Source: Spirochaetaceae bacterium
GTDB taxonomy: Bacteria > Spirochaetota > Spirochaetia > SZUA-6 > Bin103
DNA length: 64,000 bases
NCBI GenBank assembly: GCA_028821475.1
Contig: JAPPGB010000128.1
Location: forward strand, 1 to 64,000
Direction: 5' to 3'
Both the position numbers and the translations under genes were made by a program. The notes under the pieces were generated by a model. That model saw only the letters and a program-made list of their open reading frames with translations, ran no database searches and was not told the origin of the DNA. Positions 52,571 through 60,502 of this stretch are shown one piece after another. The number at the start of each line of letters is the position of its first letter. The stretch's first letter is position 1.

Positions 52571-52914
52571 TCACGACACTTGAGAGTTGCCCTGCCAACC
52601 TATGTTCGAAATCGCAACACGTGTGGCAATCTGCGAGACGGGCCGGCTCAGGAGCCGTAAACCATTTCAGTCCCAGTAGATCCGCAGCACTCAGGAGCAT
52701 GATCTGGTGGCGGAGCGTTGCAAGACGCGACACTCGCCGGTCGCGGTCAGGGCGTCCGCATAACTTCGGACAACATGTACACGTATTGACTTACGCGGCT
52801 CCGAGCGTAGTTGGCATGGTTCCTGCTTTTGGCTGCCGTGCGTAACAAGGCGAGTAGTGATCACGAGCAGCAAAGAAGGCAGGGGGATGCGACTTCGGAC
52901 GGCGATGTCGGGCA
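52571..52914. other. Gene-free stretch before the Na/Pi remnant
   Basis: No coding sequence supported on either strand; short frames are not protein-like. Contains GAGAGTTGCCCTGCCAAC (52581-52598), which also appears (as GGGAGTTGCCCTGCCAAC) inside the set 4 binding-protein gene at 51294-51311, another sign of shuffled transporter DNA. Confidence 0.4.
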
Positions 52915-53300
52915 ATGATAGCAATCATCGGTGGGTTCGCAGGTGGCCTCGGGCTGTTCTTCACGGGTCTGAATCTGCTGACTCAGCACCTGAAGGCTTT
53001 GACCAATCGGCGCGTGCGCCAAAGCGCCAGGAAGTGGACCGGTAGCCGTTTGGTCGGCGTGTCTGTGGGGCGTGTTGGCCGGCGCGATCACGCAGACGAT
53101 ACCCGCCCTGACCTTCATCACAATCGGCATGGTGCGCACGGGCATCCTGACACCAAGTCGCGCCTTTCCCATCCTGATCGGTGGCAACCTAGGCGCGGTA
53201 GTGTTGTTGCTGGTCGTGTCGTTCGACATCAAGCTGGCCGTTCTGTACGCCCTGGGGGCGTCGCAGCTGATCACTCTGGTTGCTACCAGGGGACGCTCCG
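52915..53300 (+). pseudogene. Frameshifted 5' fragment of a Na/phosphate cotransporter
   Basis: The first frame gives MIAIIGGFAGGLGLFFTGLN and ALTNRRVRQSARKWTGSR, the start of NptA/PNaS family proteins. At 53071 one extra base shifts it, and the second frame goes on with VLAGAITQTIPALTFITIGM and AFPILIGGNLGAVVLLLVV. Similarity fades near 53290 and the remaining two thirds, including the second repeat and any PhoU domain, are missing. Not functional. Confidence 0.8.
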
Positions 53301-53510
53301 CGGGAGTCGCCAACCGGAGACTGAGCGGCACGGCCCGCGAAGCGCCGGCAGTCGCACCGGACTACCTGCGGCCGATGGTGCGTTGCGCAGCGCGGTTCCC
53401 GCGCCCGCAACCCCGCCCGCCGGCTGAGGCCGCGGTGGATCGCCACGCAGGACGCAGCCAGCCCGGGTACCACCTCGGGCTCGATACGTCGATTCGGGCT
53501 TGACGGTTCC

Positions 53511-55985
53511 ATGACGACCCTACCCGAACGCAACACCCGCATCCTGATCGTACAGGATGAGCCCGCTGCAGCCGCCCGGCTGGCTGCTGACTTGAAGGAG
53601 CTGGGCCATACGGTGTGCGGCACCGTGGCGTCAGGTTGGCAGGCGGTGGCGCAGGCCGCGGAACTGTTGCCGGAGTTGGCGCTGGTCGATCTCGGCTGCG
53701 ACGACGCCACCGGTGAAGCGACGGAGCACCTGGTGGGCCGGTGCCACGTGCCGGTGCTCTACCTGGTGGGGGACGCACCAGACAGCGTATTGGAGCGAGC
53801 CGCAATGAGCGAGCCGGCCGGCTACCTGGTGAAGCCGTTCACAGCGGGCCAGCTCGGACTGCAGATCGCCGCCGCTTGCACGATGTCCGGGCGCAATCGC
53901 CGGCTGCAGCGCAGCGTCGCCCGACTGCGGCGGCACAACGATCTGATGTCCGCCGCGTTCGACAGCATCGAAGACGGGGTCGTGGCGGCCGATACGGACG
54001 GCCGCATTCTGCTGACCAACGCAAGTGCGGAACGGGTGTTCGGCACGGTACCCGCGCCGCAGCCGCGGTGGCCCGAGGCTTACGGCCTGTTCCACGCCGA
54101 CGGCACCACGCGGATGCAACCGGACGAGGTGCCCCTGGTGCGCGCCATGCGCGGGGTGCACGCGAAAGACTTCAAGATGGTCGTGCGCAATCGGCAGCAC
54201 CCCGACGGAATCGTCACGACCGTCAGGATGCGTCCGCTGGGAAACAAGGCGGGCATCGGCGGCGGCGTGGTCGTGATCCGTGACGTTACCAGGATCAGCG
54301 CTTCGGAGGACAATCTGCGCGCGACGGTCGCGGACCTGGGCCGCTCGACGCGACTCATGGACGCGGTCTTCGCCAACATCGACGATGGCGTGGTCGCCTG
54401 TGACCCTGATGGCAACTACCTGATCTTCAATCGCAGCGCGGAGCGCATCATTGGCACGTACCTGCCGGATGCGGCGATTGAGCACCGCTCCGAGCGATAC
54501 GGGCTGTACTATCCGGATGGCGTCACGCTGATGCCGCCCGAACAGCTGCCGCTTACTCGCGCGCTGCGCCACGGCGAGGCAACGGACAACGTCGATCTCG
54601 CGGTGTACAATGAGCATCGGCCGAACGGTGTCCGCATCCGGGTCAGCGGACGACCGCTGGTCGACCGCGCCGGCCACAACCTCGGCGGAGTGATCGTGTT
54701 CCGCGACGTCACCGCACTCGTCCGGACCGAGGGCGAGCTGCGGCGGACGACCAGCGAGCTGCAAACGCAACGGCGCACCATGCAGACGATCTTCGACAGT
54801 ATCAGCGACGGAGTGATCGTGGCCGACCGGGCCGGCAGGATAACCATGTACAATCCCAGCGCTGAACGCATCTTCGGCACCAAACCGGGCACCCTGCCGA
54901 TTGAGCGGTGGCCACTCCAGTATGGCTGCTACCTTGAGGATGGCACCACGCCGATGCCGGCGGATCAACTCCCGCTGGTGAGAGCCATCCGCGGGGAGTC
55001 GACGGATGACGTGGCGGTGTTCGTGCGCAACGAGAGCGTCCCGGAGGGCGTGCACGTCAGAGCCAGCGGGCGGCCGCTGGAACACGGGCGGTCGGGCGGG
55101 GTCGTGGTATACCGCGACGTGACCGAGCGGGTGCGCACGGAGGAAGCGCTCATGCAGGCGTTCTCGCAGGGCCGCATGGAGGTGCTCGACACGATTCTCC
55201 ACAACATCGGCAACGCCATCAACAGCGTCGCCGTGGGCACCGGCACGATCCGCGAGGAGCTCAAGGAGGACCAACCGTCGCGCGGGCTGCACGCCCTGGC
55301 GCAGGCGGTGGCCGCGCATGGCGATGACTGGATCGACTACCTTCAGAACGATCCGCAGGGCCGCCAGGTGCGGCCGTTCATCTCCTCGCTCGCCGAGCAA
55401 TTCAGCACCCAGCACGATCGCGTGCAACGCGCCGTCGACCGGGTCGCCGGGCGGGTGGCGCACATCGTGGACATCATCCGCACTCAGCGATCGCTCAGCG
55501 GACCCGCGCCGCTGTTCAAGGACGTCGACCTGCGGCAGACCGTGATCGATTCGGTCAGGGTGTTGCAGGAGTCGCTGACGCGGCGCGCAATCGAACTGCA
55601 GGTCGACTGCGGCAGCACGCCGGTGTCGGTACGGATCCAGGAGAGCAGGTTCCATCAGATGCTCGTGAACCTCGTGAAGAACGCGATCGAGGCGATCGAC
55701 GAGCAGGGACGGACGCAAGAGGGATTCGTGCGGATCGCGGCGCATGTGAAAGGGGGGACGCTGCACCTGGAGGTGACGGACAGCGGCATCGGCCTGGAGC
55801 CGGAACGCCTTCGGACGATTTTCTCGCCGGGCTACACCACCAAGGCGGGAGGCAGTGGGCTGGGCCTGCACTCGGCCGCGAACTACGTCATCGGATCGGG
55901 AGGCACTATCGAGGCGCTGAGCACGGGCATCGGCCGCGGCACCACCATGCGCATCGGGCTGCGCTTGCCGCCGAGCCCGTCGTGA
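53511..55985 (+). CDS. Hybrid sensor histidine kinase, REC-PAS-PAS-PAS-HATPase (first of tandem pair)
   Basis: 824 residues without membrane segments, so a cytoplasmic sensor. Residues 10-125 are a complete receiver (Asp16, Glu17, phospho-acceptor Asp60, Lys108 in LVKPF). Three PAS repeats follow (starts near 148, 283 and 423), each opening with the form FDSI(E/S)DGVV(A/V)AD and ending in an FRDVT-like strand. His564 lies in DTILHNIGNAINSV, the phosphorylation helix of the HNxGN type. The ATPase domain shows NLVKNAIEAI, DSGIGLEPERL and GGSGLGLHSAA. The GTGA overlap with the next kinase couples them. Confidence 0.9.
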   Translation: MTTLPERNTRILIVQDEPAAAARLAADLKELGHTVCGTVASGWQAVAQAAELLPELALVDLGCDDATGEATEHLVGRCHVPVLYLVGDAPDSVLERAAMSEPAGYLVKPFTAGQLGLQIAAACTMSGRNRRLQRSVARLRRHNDLMSAAFDSIEDGVVAADTDGRILLTNASAERVFGTVPAPQPRWPEAYGLFHADGTTRMQPDEVPLVRAMRGVHAKDFKMVVRNRQHPDGIVTTVRMRPLGNKAGIGGGVVVIRDVTRISASEDNLRATVADLGRSTRLMDAVFANIDDGVVACDPDGNYLIFNRSAERIIGTYLPDAAIEHRSERYGLYYPDGVTLMPPEQLPLTRALRHGEATDNVDLAVYNEHRPNGVRIRVSGRPLVDRAGHNLGGVIVFRDVTALVRTEGELRRTTSELQTQRRTMQTIFDSISDGVIVADRAGRITMYNPSAERIFGTKPGTLPIERWPLQYGCYLEDGTTPMPADQLPLVRAIRGESTDDVAVFVRNESVPEGVHVRASGRPLEHGRSGGVVVYRDVTERVRTEEALMQAFSQGRMEVLDTILHNIGNAINSVAVGTGTIREELKEDQPSRGLHALAQAVAAHGDDWIDYLQNDPQGRQVRPFISSLAEQFSTQHDRVQRAVDRVAGRVAHIVDIIRTQRSLSGPAPLFKDVDLRQTVIDSVRVLQESLTRRAIELQVDCGSTPVSVRIQESRFHQMLVNLVKNAIEAIDEQGRTQEGFVRIAAHVKGGTLHLEVTDSGIGLEPERLRTIFSPGYTTKAGGSGLGLHSAANYVIGSGGTIEALSTGIGRGTTMRIGLRLPPSPS

Positions 55986-58489
55986 GCACGCGCATCCTGG
56001 TCGTCACATCCGGCGGTGACGCGGCGACCACCCTGCAGGCGCAGCTCCAGGATCTCGGTCATCGGGTGTGCGGTACGGTGCACGATCGCCGGGAGGTATG
56101 CGCCCGCGCGGCGGAGCTGCGGCCCAGGCTGGTCGTGATCGACCTTGCGCCGGGCCGAGAGGAGGACGACGGCGCGCTCGCGACGCAACTCGGCAACCGG
56201 TTCGCCATTCCCGTGGTGTATCTGCGCACCGCGGCCGCCCGCGGCTCCGACGTGGAGCTCGATCTGCCCAACCTGTTCGGCTTCCTGCGGTATCCGTGCG
56301 GGACACGCCAGCTCGGCCTCACGATCAGCCTCGCCCTGGCCCGCCACAGGCGCGAGCGTGGGCTGCAGCGGACGATCGCCGAGCTACGTCGACGGCGGCA
56401 TCTCGGCGCCTACTGCTTCGATTGCCTGCCGGACGGCTTGATGCTGACCGGCGCCGACGGCCGCCTGCTGCTGGTCAACCAGGTCGCGGCACGGATCGTC
56501 CGGATGCACAACCGTGCGGGGCAGAGCACCGAGTACGGCATGTTCCGCGTCGACCGCGAGACTCCGGTTGCGCTGCAGGAACTGCTGGCCGCGCCCGCCG
56601 CTGCCGGCGGCACGATCTTCGTACGCAACCAGGACCATCCGAACGGCGCGCTCCTGAGTATTACCGCGCACCCGCTGACTGACAGCGATGGTGCCACGCT
56701 CGGGCGTGTGGTCATGCTCCGCGACGTGACTCGGCTCGACGAGATGGAGGCGGGTGTCCGGCAGGCTGCCACCGATCTGCAGCGCCAGAACCGCCTCCTG
56801 GAAGCCGTGCTCGACAGCATCGGCGACGGCGTGATCGTGGCGGACCGCGACGGCAAGTACGAGATCTACAATCGCGGCGCAAGGCGCATTCAGGGGCCAC
56901 CCGTGTCCAGTCACGAGTCCGACGCGGCCTCTGAGCACTACGGGTTGTACGCTCCCGACGGGAGCACACTCGTTCCCGCTGACGAACTCGCGCTGCCACG
57001 CGCGCTGCGCAACGAGGCGACCGTCAACATGGAACTCTACGTACGCAATCGGCATCGCCCGGAAGGAGCCTGGGTGCAAGTCAGCGGGAACCCGCTGCGA
57101 GACCAGTCGGGCGCCGTTCGCGGCGGCGTAATCGTCTTCCACGACGTCACTGACGACAGGAGGAACGAGGACACCCTGCAGCGCATGACCGACGCGCTGC
57201 GGGCGCAGACGCGAACCATGGAGATCGTGTTCGACAGCATTAGCGATGGCGTCGTGGCGGCCGATGGAGACGGCCGCTTCACCCTGTTCAATCCGGCCGC
57301 CGAGCGCATGGTCGGCAAGGGCATGACGAATGCGGGCACGGACCAATGGTCAGAGGAATACGGCATTTTCTTCGTCGACGGTGAAACCCCGGTGCCGACC
57401 GACGAGTTGCCGCTGGTGAGAGCCATCCGAGGGGAGTCGATGGACGACTTGGCTCTGTTCCTGCGCAACGAGGGCGTCCCGGACGGCGTGTACATCAGTG
57501 TCAACGGCCGCCCACTGCGGGGAGCGCTCGAGGCGGTCGTATCCGAGGAAGCGCGAGGAGGAGTCATCACGTTTCGCGACGTGACCGAACGGGTCCGCAC
57601 GGAGGAAGCGCTGATGCAGGCGTTCTCTCAGGGCCGCATGGAGGTGCTCGACACGATTCTCCACAACATCGGCAACGCCATCAACAGCGTCGCCGTGGGC
57701 ACCGGCACGATCCGCGAGGAGCTAAGGGAGGACCACGCGTCGCGTGGGCTGCGCGCCCTGGCGCAGGCGGTGGCCGCGCATGACGACGACTGGATCAGCT
57801 ACCTCCGGAACGATCCGCAGGGGCGCCAGGTGCGTCCGTTTGTTGCAGCGCTGGCGCAGCAGTTCGGTGCGAAGCACGATCGCATGCTGCGCGCCATCGA
57901 GAGGGTGGTCGAACGGGTGTCGCACATCATGGATATCATCCGAACTCAGCGATCGCTGAGTGAGTCGGCGCCGGTGTTCAAGGACATTGATGTGCGGCAG
58001 GCAGTGATGAATGCGGTCAACGTGGTGCAGGATTCGCTGGCGCAACGCGCAATCGAGGTGCAGATCGACTGCGGCCGCAAGCCGGTGACGGTACGTATCC
58101 AGGAGAGCAGGTTCCATCAGATGCTCGTGAACCTCGTGAAGAACGCGATCGACGCGATCGACGAACTGAACCAGCGGGCACCGGCCGAGGGTGGCGCGGC
58201 CCGTCCGCGGGTGCGGATCGTAGCCCGGGTAACGGGGCAGGTACTGGAGCTCAAGGTGATGGACAACGGCACAGGCCTGGAACCGGAATCCTTACGGACG
58301 ATCTTTCGCCCGGGCTACACCACCAGGCCGGAGCGCAGTGGACTGGGCCTGCACTCCGCCGCCAACTACGTAATTGGAACGGGAGGAAGCATCGAGGCGC
58401 AGAGCGACGGCATCGGCCACGGTACCACCATACACGTGAAGTTGCGGGTTCCGGACCCGCCGCGCTCCCAGACGGCGACACGAGACTGA
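55982..58489 (+). CDS. Hybrid sensor histidine kinase with degenerate receiver (second of tandem pair)
   Basis: 835 residues, a tandem paralogue of the preceding kinase with the same plan. The receiver-like N-terminus keeps Asp54 (VVIDLAPG), but the acidic pocket is replaced (VVTSGGD) and the switch Lys is Arg (FLRYPC), so it is probably not a normal phospho-receiver. Three PAS-like repeats follow. His561 is in DTILHNIGNAINSV. N-box NLVKNAIDAI, DNGTGLEPE and RSGLGLHSAA are intact. The segment around His561 is identical in DNA to the first kinase over 95 bp, while flanking PAS domains differ. Confidence 0.9.
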   Translation: MSTRILVVTSGGDAATTLQAQLQDLGHRVCGTVHDRREVCARAAELRPRLVVIDLAPGREEDDGALATQLGNRFAIPVVYLRTAAARGSDVELDLPNLFGFLRYPCGTRQLGLTISLALARHRRERGLQRTIAELRRRRHLGAYCFDCLPDGLMLTGADGRLLLVNQVAARIVRMHNRAGQSTEYGMFRVDRETPVALQELLAAPAAAGGTIFVRNQDHPNGALLSITAHPLTDSDGATLGRVVMLRDVTRLDEMEAGVRQAATDLQRQNRLLEAVLDSIGDGVIVADRDGKYEIYNRGARRIQGPPVSSHESDAASEHYGLYAPDGSTLVPADELALPRALRNEATVNMELYVRNRHRPEGAWVQVSGNPLRDQSGAVRGGVIVFHDVTDDRRNEDTLQRMTDALRAQTRTMEIVFDSISDGVVAADGDGRFTLFNPAAERMVGKGMTNAGTDQWSEEYGIFFVDGETPVPTDELPLVRAIRGESMDDLALFLRNEGVPDGVYISVNGRPLRGALEAVVSEEARGGVITFRDVTERVRTEEALMQAFSQGRMEVLDTILHNIGNAINSVAVGTGTIREELREDHASRGLRALAQAVAAHDDDWISYLRNDPQGRQVRPFVAALAQQFGAKHDRMLRAIERVVERVSHIMDIIRTQRSLSESAPVFKDIDVRQAVMNAVNVVQDSLAQRAIEVQIDCGRKPVTVRIQESRFHQMLVNLVKNAIDAIDELNQRAPAEGGAARPRVRIVARVTGQVLELKVMDNGTGLEPESLRTIFRPGYTTRPERSGLGLHSAANYVIGTGGSIEAQSDGIGHGTTIHVKLRVPDPPRSQTATRD

Positions 58490-58513: not shown

Positions 58514-58550
58514 CCGCGGCGGGACCGCCGACCTGCGTCAGTCGCCGCGG
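58514..58550. terminator. GC-rich hairpin in the convergent gap
   Basis: CCGCGGCG (58514-58521) and CGCCGCGG (58543-58550) are perfect inverted arms, with a nested CGGCGG/CCGCCG pair at 58517-58530. Lies where the kinase pair and the response regulator gene end facing each other. No T-tract. Tentative bidirectional stop. Confidence 0.35.
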
Positions 58551-60502
58551 GCGCGCGCGGACAGGCCATACTTCTTCAGCTTCCGGTGCAGAGTGGCGCG
58601 ACTGATGCCGAGGGTATGCGCCGCTCGCGTCACGTTGTGGGCGGACGCCTTGAGCGCCTGGAGCACTGCCTGGCGCTCGATAATGTCCAACTGCAGCACT
58701 TTCGTCGGCGCGCCGGATTCCTCGGCGACGCCACGTTCCGGGCGCGCCGGTCGCAGATGCGACGTCAGAGCGGCTGCATGAATGGTACCGGTGGTGTCGA
58801 CCAATGCGGCACGTTCGATGACGCCGCTCAGCTCGCGAATGTTGCCGGGCCAGTCGTACGCCAGCAGCCGGCCTATCGCGCCCGGAGAAATCCGCTTCAC
58901 CGGTTCGCCGTTGCGCTCGGCGTGCCGCTTCAGGAAGTGGTTCACGAGCTGCGGAATGTCCTCGCGTCGCTCGCGGAGCGGAGGTATCACGATCGGGAAC
59001 GACGCCAGGCGGAAGTACAGATCCTCACGGAACTCGCCCGCCCGCATCGCCGCCTCAAGATCCCGGTTGGTGGCGGCAATCACCCTAACGTCCACCGGGA
59101 TCGTAGTCGTTCCACCGACCCGCTGCAGTTCGCGCTCCTGCAGGACACGCAGCAGCTTGGCCTGCAGCGCCGGATTCATGTCGGCGATCTCGTCCAGCAG
59201 GATCGTGCCACCGTGCGCGCGTTCAAAGTACCCGATCCGGCTGCTCGTCGCACCGGTGAATGCCCCCTGCTCGTGCCCGAACAACTCGCTCTCGATCATA
59301 GCCTCCGGCACTGCCGCGCAGTTCACTGCCATGAAGGGCCCCTTGCAGCGTGCGCCGTTGAAGTGCAGGGCCTTGGCTACCAGCTCCTTGCCGGTACCGC
59401 TCTCGCCGCGGACAAGGACCGTGATGTCGACCTCCATCGCCCGCTTCATCAGCGCGTATACACGCTGCATCGCCACGCTCGAGCCCTCGATGCCGTCGAA
59501 TGAGTAGGCCGACTCCAGCGTCTCGCGCAGACTCCGCACCTCGGCCTGCATCTGCTCGATCGCGACGACTTCGGCAAGGTCGCGGTACACGTACAGGTCG
59601 CCGACCACCCTTCCCCGGTCATCGTGCACGGGCCTGTGCTGCCGAGAATAGAGGCGACCACCCGGCATCGGCCCCGGAGCACCGTACTTCCGCGGGCTCC
59701 GGTCCGCCCCGGCAGCGGGCTCCGCCTGTTCCACCAGTTCCACGAGTTCTCCGCCCGCATCGGACGTGAGAAAACTGCCCACGTCGGTCAGCGGTACCTT
59801 GCGCATCCGCGTTTCCCACAGCGCATCCGCTTGCTGGGAAGTCAACGCCTTCATCTCCTCCTCGGTGGAGGCCATCATGCGCTGATAGTAACGATTGGCG
59901 AACACCAGTCGCTGCGCGTCATCACAGACCGCAATCGCCTCGCCGATGGAGTCGAGCACCGCCGTCAGCCGTTGGTTGGTGATGGTCAACTGGCGGCGCC
60001 CCGCCGCCAGTTCCTGCTCCAGGTTCCACTTTTCGACCAGCGCCAGGGTGATCTGCTGAATCTCCTCGCGTGCGAACGGCTTTCTGATGTACAGCAGCTT
60101 GTGGAGCAGTTCCATGTCTTGCACGATGTCGGCCAGTGGCGTGTCCGTATACGCTGTCATCAGCACGATCTCGATGGCCCGGTCGATGCGGCGGATACTC
60201 CGGACCGTTGCCACGCCGTCGATGCCGGGCGGCATTCTGATGTCGACGTAAGCAGCCGCGATGGGGCGTTTGCGGTGCGCTTCACGTGCCAGGAGCGCGC
60301 ACGCCTCCTCGCCTCCCATCGCGTGCAGCAGCTCGAATGCCGGCAGATGATGATCTGACTCCACGTGGCTGAGGAACGCCGCCGTCGGGTCGTCCGCCGC
60401 CGCCATGGGCCGCGGCCGGAGCATCTCCTCGAAGTCTTCATGGATGTCCTTCTGGTCGTCGACGATCAGAACTCTGGCGTTCGCCGGTTGCTTGCGTCTC
60501 AC
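58538..60502 (-). CDS. Sigma-54-dependent response regulator, REC-PAS-AAA-Fis
   Basis: 654 residues. Receiver with Asp15-Asp16, Asp87 and Lys141, and a roughly 40-residue insertion between helix 1 and the phospho-acceptor strand (typical of the subgroup with a PPGxDGV motif). Residues 175-310 form a PAS-like domain. The AAA domain has Walker A GESGTGKE (366-373), GAFTGA (413-418, sigma-54 contact) and LLDE. The C-terminal Fis-type helix-turn-helix is [23 protein letters not shown] start with GAGGAA upstream. Converges on the two kinases, the likely cognate phosphodonors. All catalytic motifs are intact. Confidence 0.92.

Follow-up and report, generated by a model that had tools for sequence, protein, structure and literature searches.

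The locus lies in a 64,000-nt stretch of a Spirochaetaceae draft genome (the whole stretch being referred to below as the window). It carries two tandem kinase genes, kA and kB, and a response regulator gene, with the following features given in window coordinates.

53511..55985, plus strand: kinase A (kA), 824 aa, with N-terminal receiver, three PAS domains, DHp and HATPase
53538..53870, plus strand: kA receiver, aa 10-120 (Pfam Response_reg, 9.1e-8)
about aa 145-262 of kA, plus strand: first PAS domain of kA, placed by eye
54369..55145, plus strand: kA PAS 2 (aa 287-404) and PAS 3 (about aa 424-545), with 3 PAS_4 stretches
55167..55261, plus strand: kA 95-nt tract, same as 57629-57723, with the H-box ILHNIGNAINSV and His564 at 55200-55202
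55635..55690, plus strand: kA 56-nt N-box tract, same as 58097-58152
55641..55970, plus strand: kA HATPase_c domain (Pfam)
55982..58489, plus strand: kinase B (kB), 835 aa, with N-terminal pseudo-receiver, three PAS domains, DHp and HATPase
55991..56335, plus strand: kB pseudo-receiver, aa 4-118, from residues and predicted receiver fold
57629..57723, plus strand: kB 95-nt tract, with His561 at 57662-57664
58097..58152, plus strand: kB 56-nt N-box tract
58103..58450, plus strand: kB HATPase_c domain (Pfam)
58538..60502, minus strand: response regulator, 654 aa, with intact receiver, PAS, sigma54 AAA+ with GAFTGA, and Fis-type HTH

The TGA stop of kA and the GTG start of kB overlap in the GTGA at 55982-55985, and the regulator gene is convergent with kB, 48 nt separating the two. 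Pfam models detected PAS and HATPase_c domains in both kinases, and a receiver, PAS, sigma54 AAA+ and Fis-type HTH in the regulator. With its intact receiver, GAFTGA-bearing AAA+ domain and Fis-type HTH, in a genome that has rpoN, the regulator belongs to the NtrC family of sigma54 activators. The original prediction had described kA and kB as tandem soluble hybrid kinases. Tandem they are, and their solubility agrees with the highest 19-residue Kyte-Doolittle means (1.21 for kA and 1.46 for kB), no membrane segment being evident. The term hybrid does not apply: a hybrid histidine kinase feeds a C-terminal receiver from its own His, and neither kA nor kB has one. Both instead show the layout of Rec-controlled histidine kinases, with N-terminal receiver, DHp and HATPase on one chain. 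Just upstream of kA, a Na/Pi-cotransporter-like gene (52915-53503, plus strand) has a frame apparently broken near 53060; its Pfam match is confined to the second frame, and a sigma54-like site lies at 52812.

Receivers, kinase core and regulator

The kA receiver has Q15,D16 / D60 / V / K at its active site, three of the five canonical residues, and that of kB has T,S / D54 / R / Y, keeping one of five, the phospho-acceptor Asp. This bears out the earlier claim that the second receiver retains Asp54 and has lost the acidic pocket and the Lys: T,S stand for the acidic pair and Y for the Lys, with R in addition at the Thr position. The kB N-terminus was missed by the Pfam receiver model, yet it is homologous to the kA receiver (phmmer 2e-14). 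A model built on 4 sequences had a mean pLDDT of 86 and, at an E cut-off of 0.001, matched 362 PDB entries, the best 50 of the 362 being nearly all receiver proteins. Residues and this confident fold model together back the view of the kB domain as a pseudo-receiver. By the absence of residues from the quintet (D, DD, T, K), kB is clearly one, and kA is one by the strict rule. Going by the residues, a receiver that takes up phosphate as its input looks improbable in kB and doubtful in kA. Pseudo-receivers lacking residues of this set that keep the Asp may in some cases work weakly, according to the available part of PMC12632262.

Receiver decay extends across the family. A receiver was found by phmmer in 24 of 44 kinases, the 20 others including two (L071 and L091) cut at a contig end. 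By eye, L090 starts with a receiver-like stretch below the phmmer threshold, and the Terriglobia-type kinases start with hydrophobic segments in the receiver's place. The five-residue active site was intact in 7/24 kinase receivers against 35/36 regulator receivers, and the phospho-acceptor Asp was gone from 6/24 kinase receivers; in this count L058 is cut at its contig start, and the Lys column of the first L054 kinase (k1) is an alignment gap where the sequence reads Q. Since they are often decayed or absent, the kinase-borne receivers look like optional input rather than output. The proposal that the kA receiver acts as a sink or switch has less in its favour than a role as optional input module, that receiver being itself incomplete (3/5) and a hit being lacking in so many related kinases.

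Two such kinases in tandem with one regulator occur at three loci: the window, L054 in genome G343 and L063 in genome G349. In each of the three pairs one receiver has both Asp and Lys and its partner lacks the Lys, and in two pairs the Asp as well. The better-preserved receiver belongs to the first gene in the window and to the second gene in the G343 and G349 pairs, and each of the latter pairs has one receiver with Asn replacing Asp.

In contrast to the receivers' fate across this family, the partner regulators are intact, which distinguishes the present case from the pseudo-receivers and Asp-less receivers described in the available parts of PMC12632262 and PMC4395418, to which it is similar in combining a receiver fold with missing active-site residues. 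The uneven loss within each of the three tandem pairs is a further difference from those described receivers. The family thereby offers a natural series for asking what pseudo-receivers do, with kinase receivers repeatedly decayed beside intact regulator receivers.

The catalytic core is well preserved. The H-box His and the Asn at +4 were present in 42/42 cores, the Asn at +1 in 41/42, and both N-box Asn in 42/42 (the partial cores L092 and L093 being excluded from these counts and from core trees), so that on these residues the kinases look active. The His-to-N-box distance is 156 residues; HisKA kinases have a shorter spacing. No HisKA-type Pfam model matched whole kA or kB at E 0.1, and for five family cores searched at E 1 none was among the 16 families listed. 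None of 31 PDB matches starts before profile position 51. An AlphaFold core model from 5 sequences had a mean pLDDT of 64, with the H-box helix badly modelled and kinase-like fold matches; by this model the DHp hairpin may contain one more helical segment.

Family cores share an HNxGN H-box and a DHp that is longer than usual, and a wider LHNVGN group exists. Kinases of this LHNVGN type, including one on a Variovorax plasmid, likewise have an HNxGNxxNS H-box followed by a similar inserted stretch, and are about 32% identical to the family here. A literature search for the HNIGN string and its variants returned no relevant paper among the matches listed. The family also includes a minimal orphan kinase of 345 aa (L060 8315-9352, G000:C79) with HD for HN in its H-box, convergent with a 2887-aa frame.

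The receiver of the window regulator is intact (D15,D16 / D87 / T / K). Of 46 family kinase frames on 44 stretches, 37 had a regulator on the same stretch, at no more than 1.41 kb for 34 of them, the remaining three being outer members of tandem pairs; the L091 kinase frame was missing from the greedy ORF list behind these counts. All three tandem pairs have one regulator each. Among the nine kinases without one, L068, L078, L087 and L092 end no more than 0.9 kb from the edge of the contig; L062, a distant outgroup, likewise lies close to a contig edge; the regulator of L059 is cut off after its PAS domain; and L056, L060 and L066 seemingly have none. The regulator is convergent to the kinases in the window and co-directional in most relatives. 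Core distances correlated with regulator-receiver distances (r 0.89 over 34 loci, 0/5000 permutations), a correlation inflated by shared descent; regulators shorter than 430 aa were left out, and the inner kinase represented each tandem pair. The conserved neighbourhood backs the proposal that the two kinases share one output partner, and the regulator is the likely output of both. In an own-genome paralogue (L004 1845-3329, G000:C47), the kinase is followed by a regulator that seemingly ends after receiver and PAS, without AAA+.

Identity tracts and silent sites in the tandem pairs

Comparison of kA and kB reproduced the 95 identical bases around the active His and the further stretch at the N-box (56 nt), and added a third exact tract of 29 nt (55292 / 57754). 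As had been claimed, the PAS domains differ. Amino-acid identity per 30-residue window was not uniform, ranging from 0.23 to 0.63 from the receiver through the second PAS domain against 0.53-1.00 in the kinase core. Silent sites followed the same course. Per 50 residues, silent differences (pS) were 0.38-0.64 over kA aa 1-500, 0.34 at aa 501-550, 0.08 at 551-600 and 0.30-0.45 at 601-800. Identical residues used the same codon at a frequency of 0.53 outside the core (n=228) versus 0.80 within it (n=208). Shuffling equalled the longest same-codon run (30) in 10 of 20,000 trials when the whole gene was used; with the core alone it did so in 706 of 20,000, which is marginal. Silent-site homogenisation is thus limited to part of the gene in this pair, the evidence being marginal when judged within the core alone. 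The identity seems to have two layers, one of raised similarity along the entire core and a younger one forming an island at the H-box; by these measures the 95-nt tract stands out only modestly from the core as a whole.

The original prediction had left the choice between gene conversion and strong constraint. Protein constraint as sole cause of the tract identity was rejected, since silent sites step between the receiver/PAS half and the tract. Against the own-genome paralogue L058, kA shared codons at 12/19 and 12/17 positions in the tract region, with a longest identical run of 28 nt; that own-genome paralogues have far fewer codons in common there speaks against constraint at the DNA level. 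Gene conversion drew support from this contrast, from the silent-site step in both the window and, independently, G343, and from a conflict between trees in G343. Recombination best explains the kA/kB DNA identity.

In the G343 pair, the core contains a 104-nt identical run, with the same codon used at a frequency of 0.86, and pS, which is 0.33-0.68 as far as aa 850, drops to 0.12-0.32 once the last PAS is reached. Its two receivers fell into separate clades (support 100/100 and 99/98) together with kinases of other genomes, and its two cores were sisters (98-99). AU tests rejected both the receivers as one clade (p 1.7e-6) and the placement of the k1 core with the companions of its receiver (p 4.6e-4), the groups tested having been named after the trees had been seen. 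A second core tree and the AU tests were run without L062, which has a very long branch, and that tree also without L103 (29% identical). By these trees, recombination has given input and core different histories, at the least in the G343 pair. For kA and kB themselves, placement in the receiver tree is weak, long branches meeting with support of 81/53. The G349 pair showed no recent homogenisation (same codon 0.42, longest identical run 15 nt), so conversion is not a rule. For the three tandem pairs, identity over DHp alpha-1 was 1.00, 0.97 and 0.85; 36 dispersed same-genome pairs had a median of 0.72 and a maximum of 0.95. A literature search on gene conversion in kinases gave no title on point among the matches listed.

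We propose, with a probability of roughly two in three, that kA and kB are tandem Rec-controlled kinases that have different inputs and one sigma54 partner, with cores homogenised by gene conversion and receivers serving as optional input or docking modules. The pair would be translationally coupled, cytosolic kinases of one family (receiver, PAS array, HNIGN DHp and HATPase), each with a signal of its own, read by a PAS array and a receiver that have diverged between the two. Autophosphorylation would occur at His564 in kA or His561 in kB, and phosphate would then pass to Asp87 of the single neighbouring sigma54 activator. Gene conversion between the copies, latest in the 95-nt tract, would hold the DHp alike while the input halves diverge. 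The pseudo-receiver of kB and the weakened receiver of kA would act as optional input or docking modules. The DHp of known kinases carries the dimer interface and the partner-docking surface, and paralogous two-component systems are usually thought to avoid crosstalk through DHp divergence. The tandem kinases seem to do the reverse, with DHp alike and inputs diverged, so that two signals could meet at one regulator.

Some of the same evidence would also fit a younger duplication, after which one or both N-terminal halves were replaced by recombination from other family kinases. The silent-site step by itself gives no direction, the G343 receivers belong to two clades common to other genomes, and shuffling of input domains after duplication is described in the available part of PMC4603909. 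Yet the lowest-pS stretch is a short island (0.08 versus 0.30-0.45), and one old breakpoint would give none. In addition, the k1 core of G343 groups with k2 and L056, not with the companions of its receiver, a placement that core replacement would explain as well as receiver replacement. We regard such a swap of inputs as possible but unlikely.

It is improbable that the pair forms a cascade, with phosphate passing from one kinase to the receiver of its neighbour. The precedent is the Leptospira lvr system, whose genes arose by duplication and in which the adjacent LvrA activates the Rec-controlled kinase LvrB by phosphorylating its receiver (PMC5863495 and PMC13269768, in the parts available), and the kA receiver does keep the Asp, one pocket acid and the Lys. 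However, the kB receiver retains the Asp alone, one receiver of each other tandem pair has Asn in place of Asp, and a receiver hit is absent in 20/44 family kinases.

More improbable again is a simple tandem duplication without recombination, in which the core was strongly constrained and the PAS domains drifted fast. It would account for a core of higher amino-acid identity, and among dispersed paralogues, too, no block is better conserved than DHp alpha-1. But silent sites step as well, and other own-genome paralogues do not share the codons concerned. The 32 codons of the tract would be identical by chance with P ~10^-9.7, given the same protein and independently chosen codons, a null whose failure counts against old duplication plus protein constraint and not against a younger core.

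An assembly artefact behind the identical tracts can be practically dismissed, despite the 183 contigs of this draft assembly and the trouble that assemblers are known to have with identical tracts near k-mer size, as both copies stand, differently flanked and with open frames, within one 126-kb contig, and the same kind of tract occurs in another assembly.

Distribution and known systems

At a cut-off of E 1e-78, the core occurs five times in the source genome. Among 60 other relatives of that genome, no match was found at E 1e-60 (up to 16 candidates scored per genome), and a 296-genome sample of the phylum gave one 26%-identical hit outside the own genome (up to 8 candidates scored per genome). 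No close relative of the kinase pair was found on viral contigs. Two records with strong relatives bear the titles Terriglobia (L015) and Candidatus Poribacteria (L016), the label Poribacteria-type resting on the record title of L016. The family occurred in 21/97 genomes around L016 and in 5/101 around L015, the L016 and L015 genomes being counted and one of the five being merely 29% identical. Upstream of 8312 on the minus strand of L088 (G392), a family kinase is perhaps split into 432- and 410-aa frames, with an opposite-strand 425-aa frame, possibly an insertion element, between the halves.

Together with their regulator, the kinases represent a genuine and rather uncommon form of ordinary two-component signalling. 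They resemble AtoS/AtoC and ZraS/ZraR in that a kinase has a sigma54 activator as neighbour, and the best NCBIfam matches were AtoS and ZraS for the cores and AtoC for the regulator, all below cut-off. AtoS/ZraS-type kinases carry HE in the H-box. Unlike them, kA and kB have HN in the H-box, an N-terminal receiver and a tandem arrangement, and lack a HisKA-type Pfam match.

A second likeness is to LvrB, which also has an N-terminal receiver before DHp-HATPase and adjoins a paralogous kinase derived from duplication (PMC13269768 and PMC5863495, parts available). The LvrB NCBIfam model matched 5/5 family cores scanned (best 4.5e-16), but whole kB scored 53.5 bits against it, far below the cut-off of 500. 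As described in the same parts of these papers, LvrB is Rec-DHp-CA without PAS, whereas kA and kB have a PAS array between receiver and DHp. The LvrB receiver is phosphorylated by LvrA and its partner is LvrC, whereas the kA and kB receivers are partly or mostly decayed and the likely partner of the two kinases is a sigma54 activator. Those parts do not mention homogenised cores for the Lvr system, and the term gene conversion occurs 0 times in PMC5863495.

sigma54-type sites and giant repeat proteins in relatives

We scored sites with at least 11 of 12 positions of the sigma54 -24/-12 consensus in 42 stretches from relatives (569 kb); this cut-off and the 800-aa cut-off for giant genes were chosen after a first look. 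There were 34 sites in total, 20 of which lay within 1.5 kb downstream of the regulator on its strand, against 0.64 expected. The corresponding p of 3e-23 is too small, related loci being non-independent. A site was present in 19/36 regulator windows. The loci with sites within this distance were L055, L063, L064, L067, L069, L070, L073, L075, L076, L077, L082, L083, L084, L085, L088, L094, L100 and L101. The 17/36 regulator windows without a site (three of them shorter than 600 nt) include the G343 tandem locus, the G349 locus alone of the three tandem loci having one. L057, L072, L074 and L081, a group with intact receivers, had no site downstream of the regulator. In the genomes of four relatives, the site pattern was found 82 times versus 19 in a reversed control.

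Of the 18 loci with a site that were examined, 7 had a frame led by an RBS that began 80-180 nt past it. The next gene of any size on the downstream side was at least 800 aa long in 8/23 cases versus 15/221 other frames (Fisher p 3.6e-4). Four of six such giant proteins scanned have LRR, WD40, cadherin or bacterial Ig domains, the two others giving no above-cut-off match; from hydrophobic N-termini seen by eye, the giant repeat proteins are apparently secreted. The adjacent sites in some relatives name a concrete target, giant repeat proteins with eukaryote-like domains.

The window itself has two 11/12 sites (52812, plus strand, and 61230, minus strand), not above background, and no giant gene beside the regulator, so that a giant-protein target for the window is one that we infer. 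In its genome the pattern with at most one mismatch was not commoner than in the reversed control (56 versus 63), and the frames behind 8 of the 56 sites had no common theme. A broader reading, which we hold to be doubtful, is that DHp exchange maintains the wiring of two heterodimerisable sensors, one with a receiver and one with a pseudo-receiver, to one regulator, as part of a cross-phylum module that in relatives would drive giant, apparently secreted repeat proteins (LRR, WD40, cadherin, Ig) through an adjacent sigma54 promoter. No paper on sigma54 control of giant repeat proteins in sponge symbionts was found among the matches listed; in the available part of PMC3909097, on a Poribacteria genome, two-component genes are described next to microcompartment clusters.

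Rfam gave no match in the window or in the stretches of seven relatives. In L064, L070, L075 and L076, a noncoding leader lies within about 200 nt past the site and contains, by eye, a recurring GCGGCAGG...CCTGCCGC inverted repeat, making a small RNA possible at these four loci.
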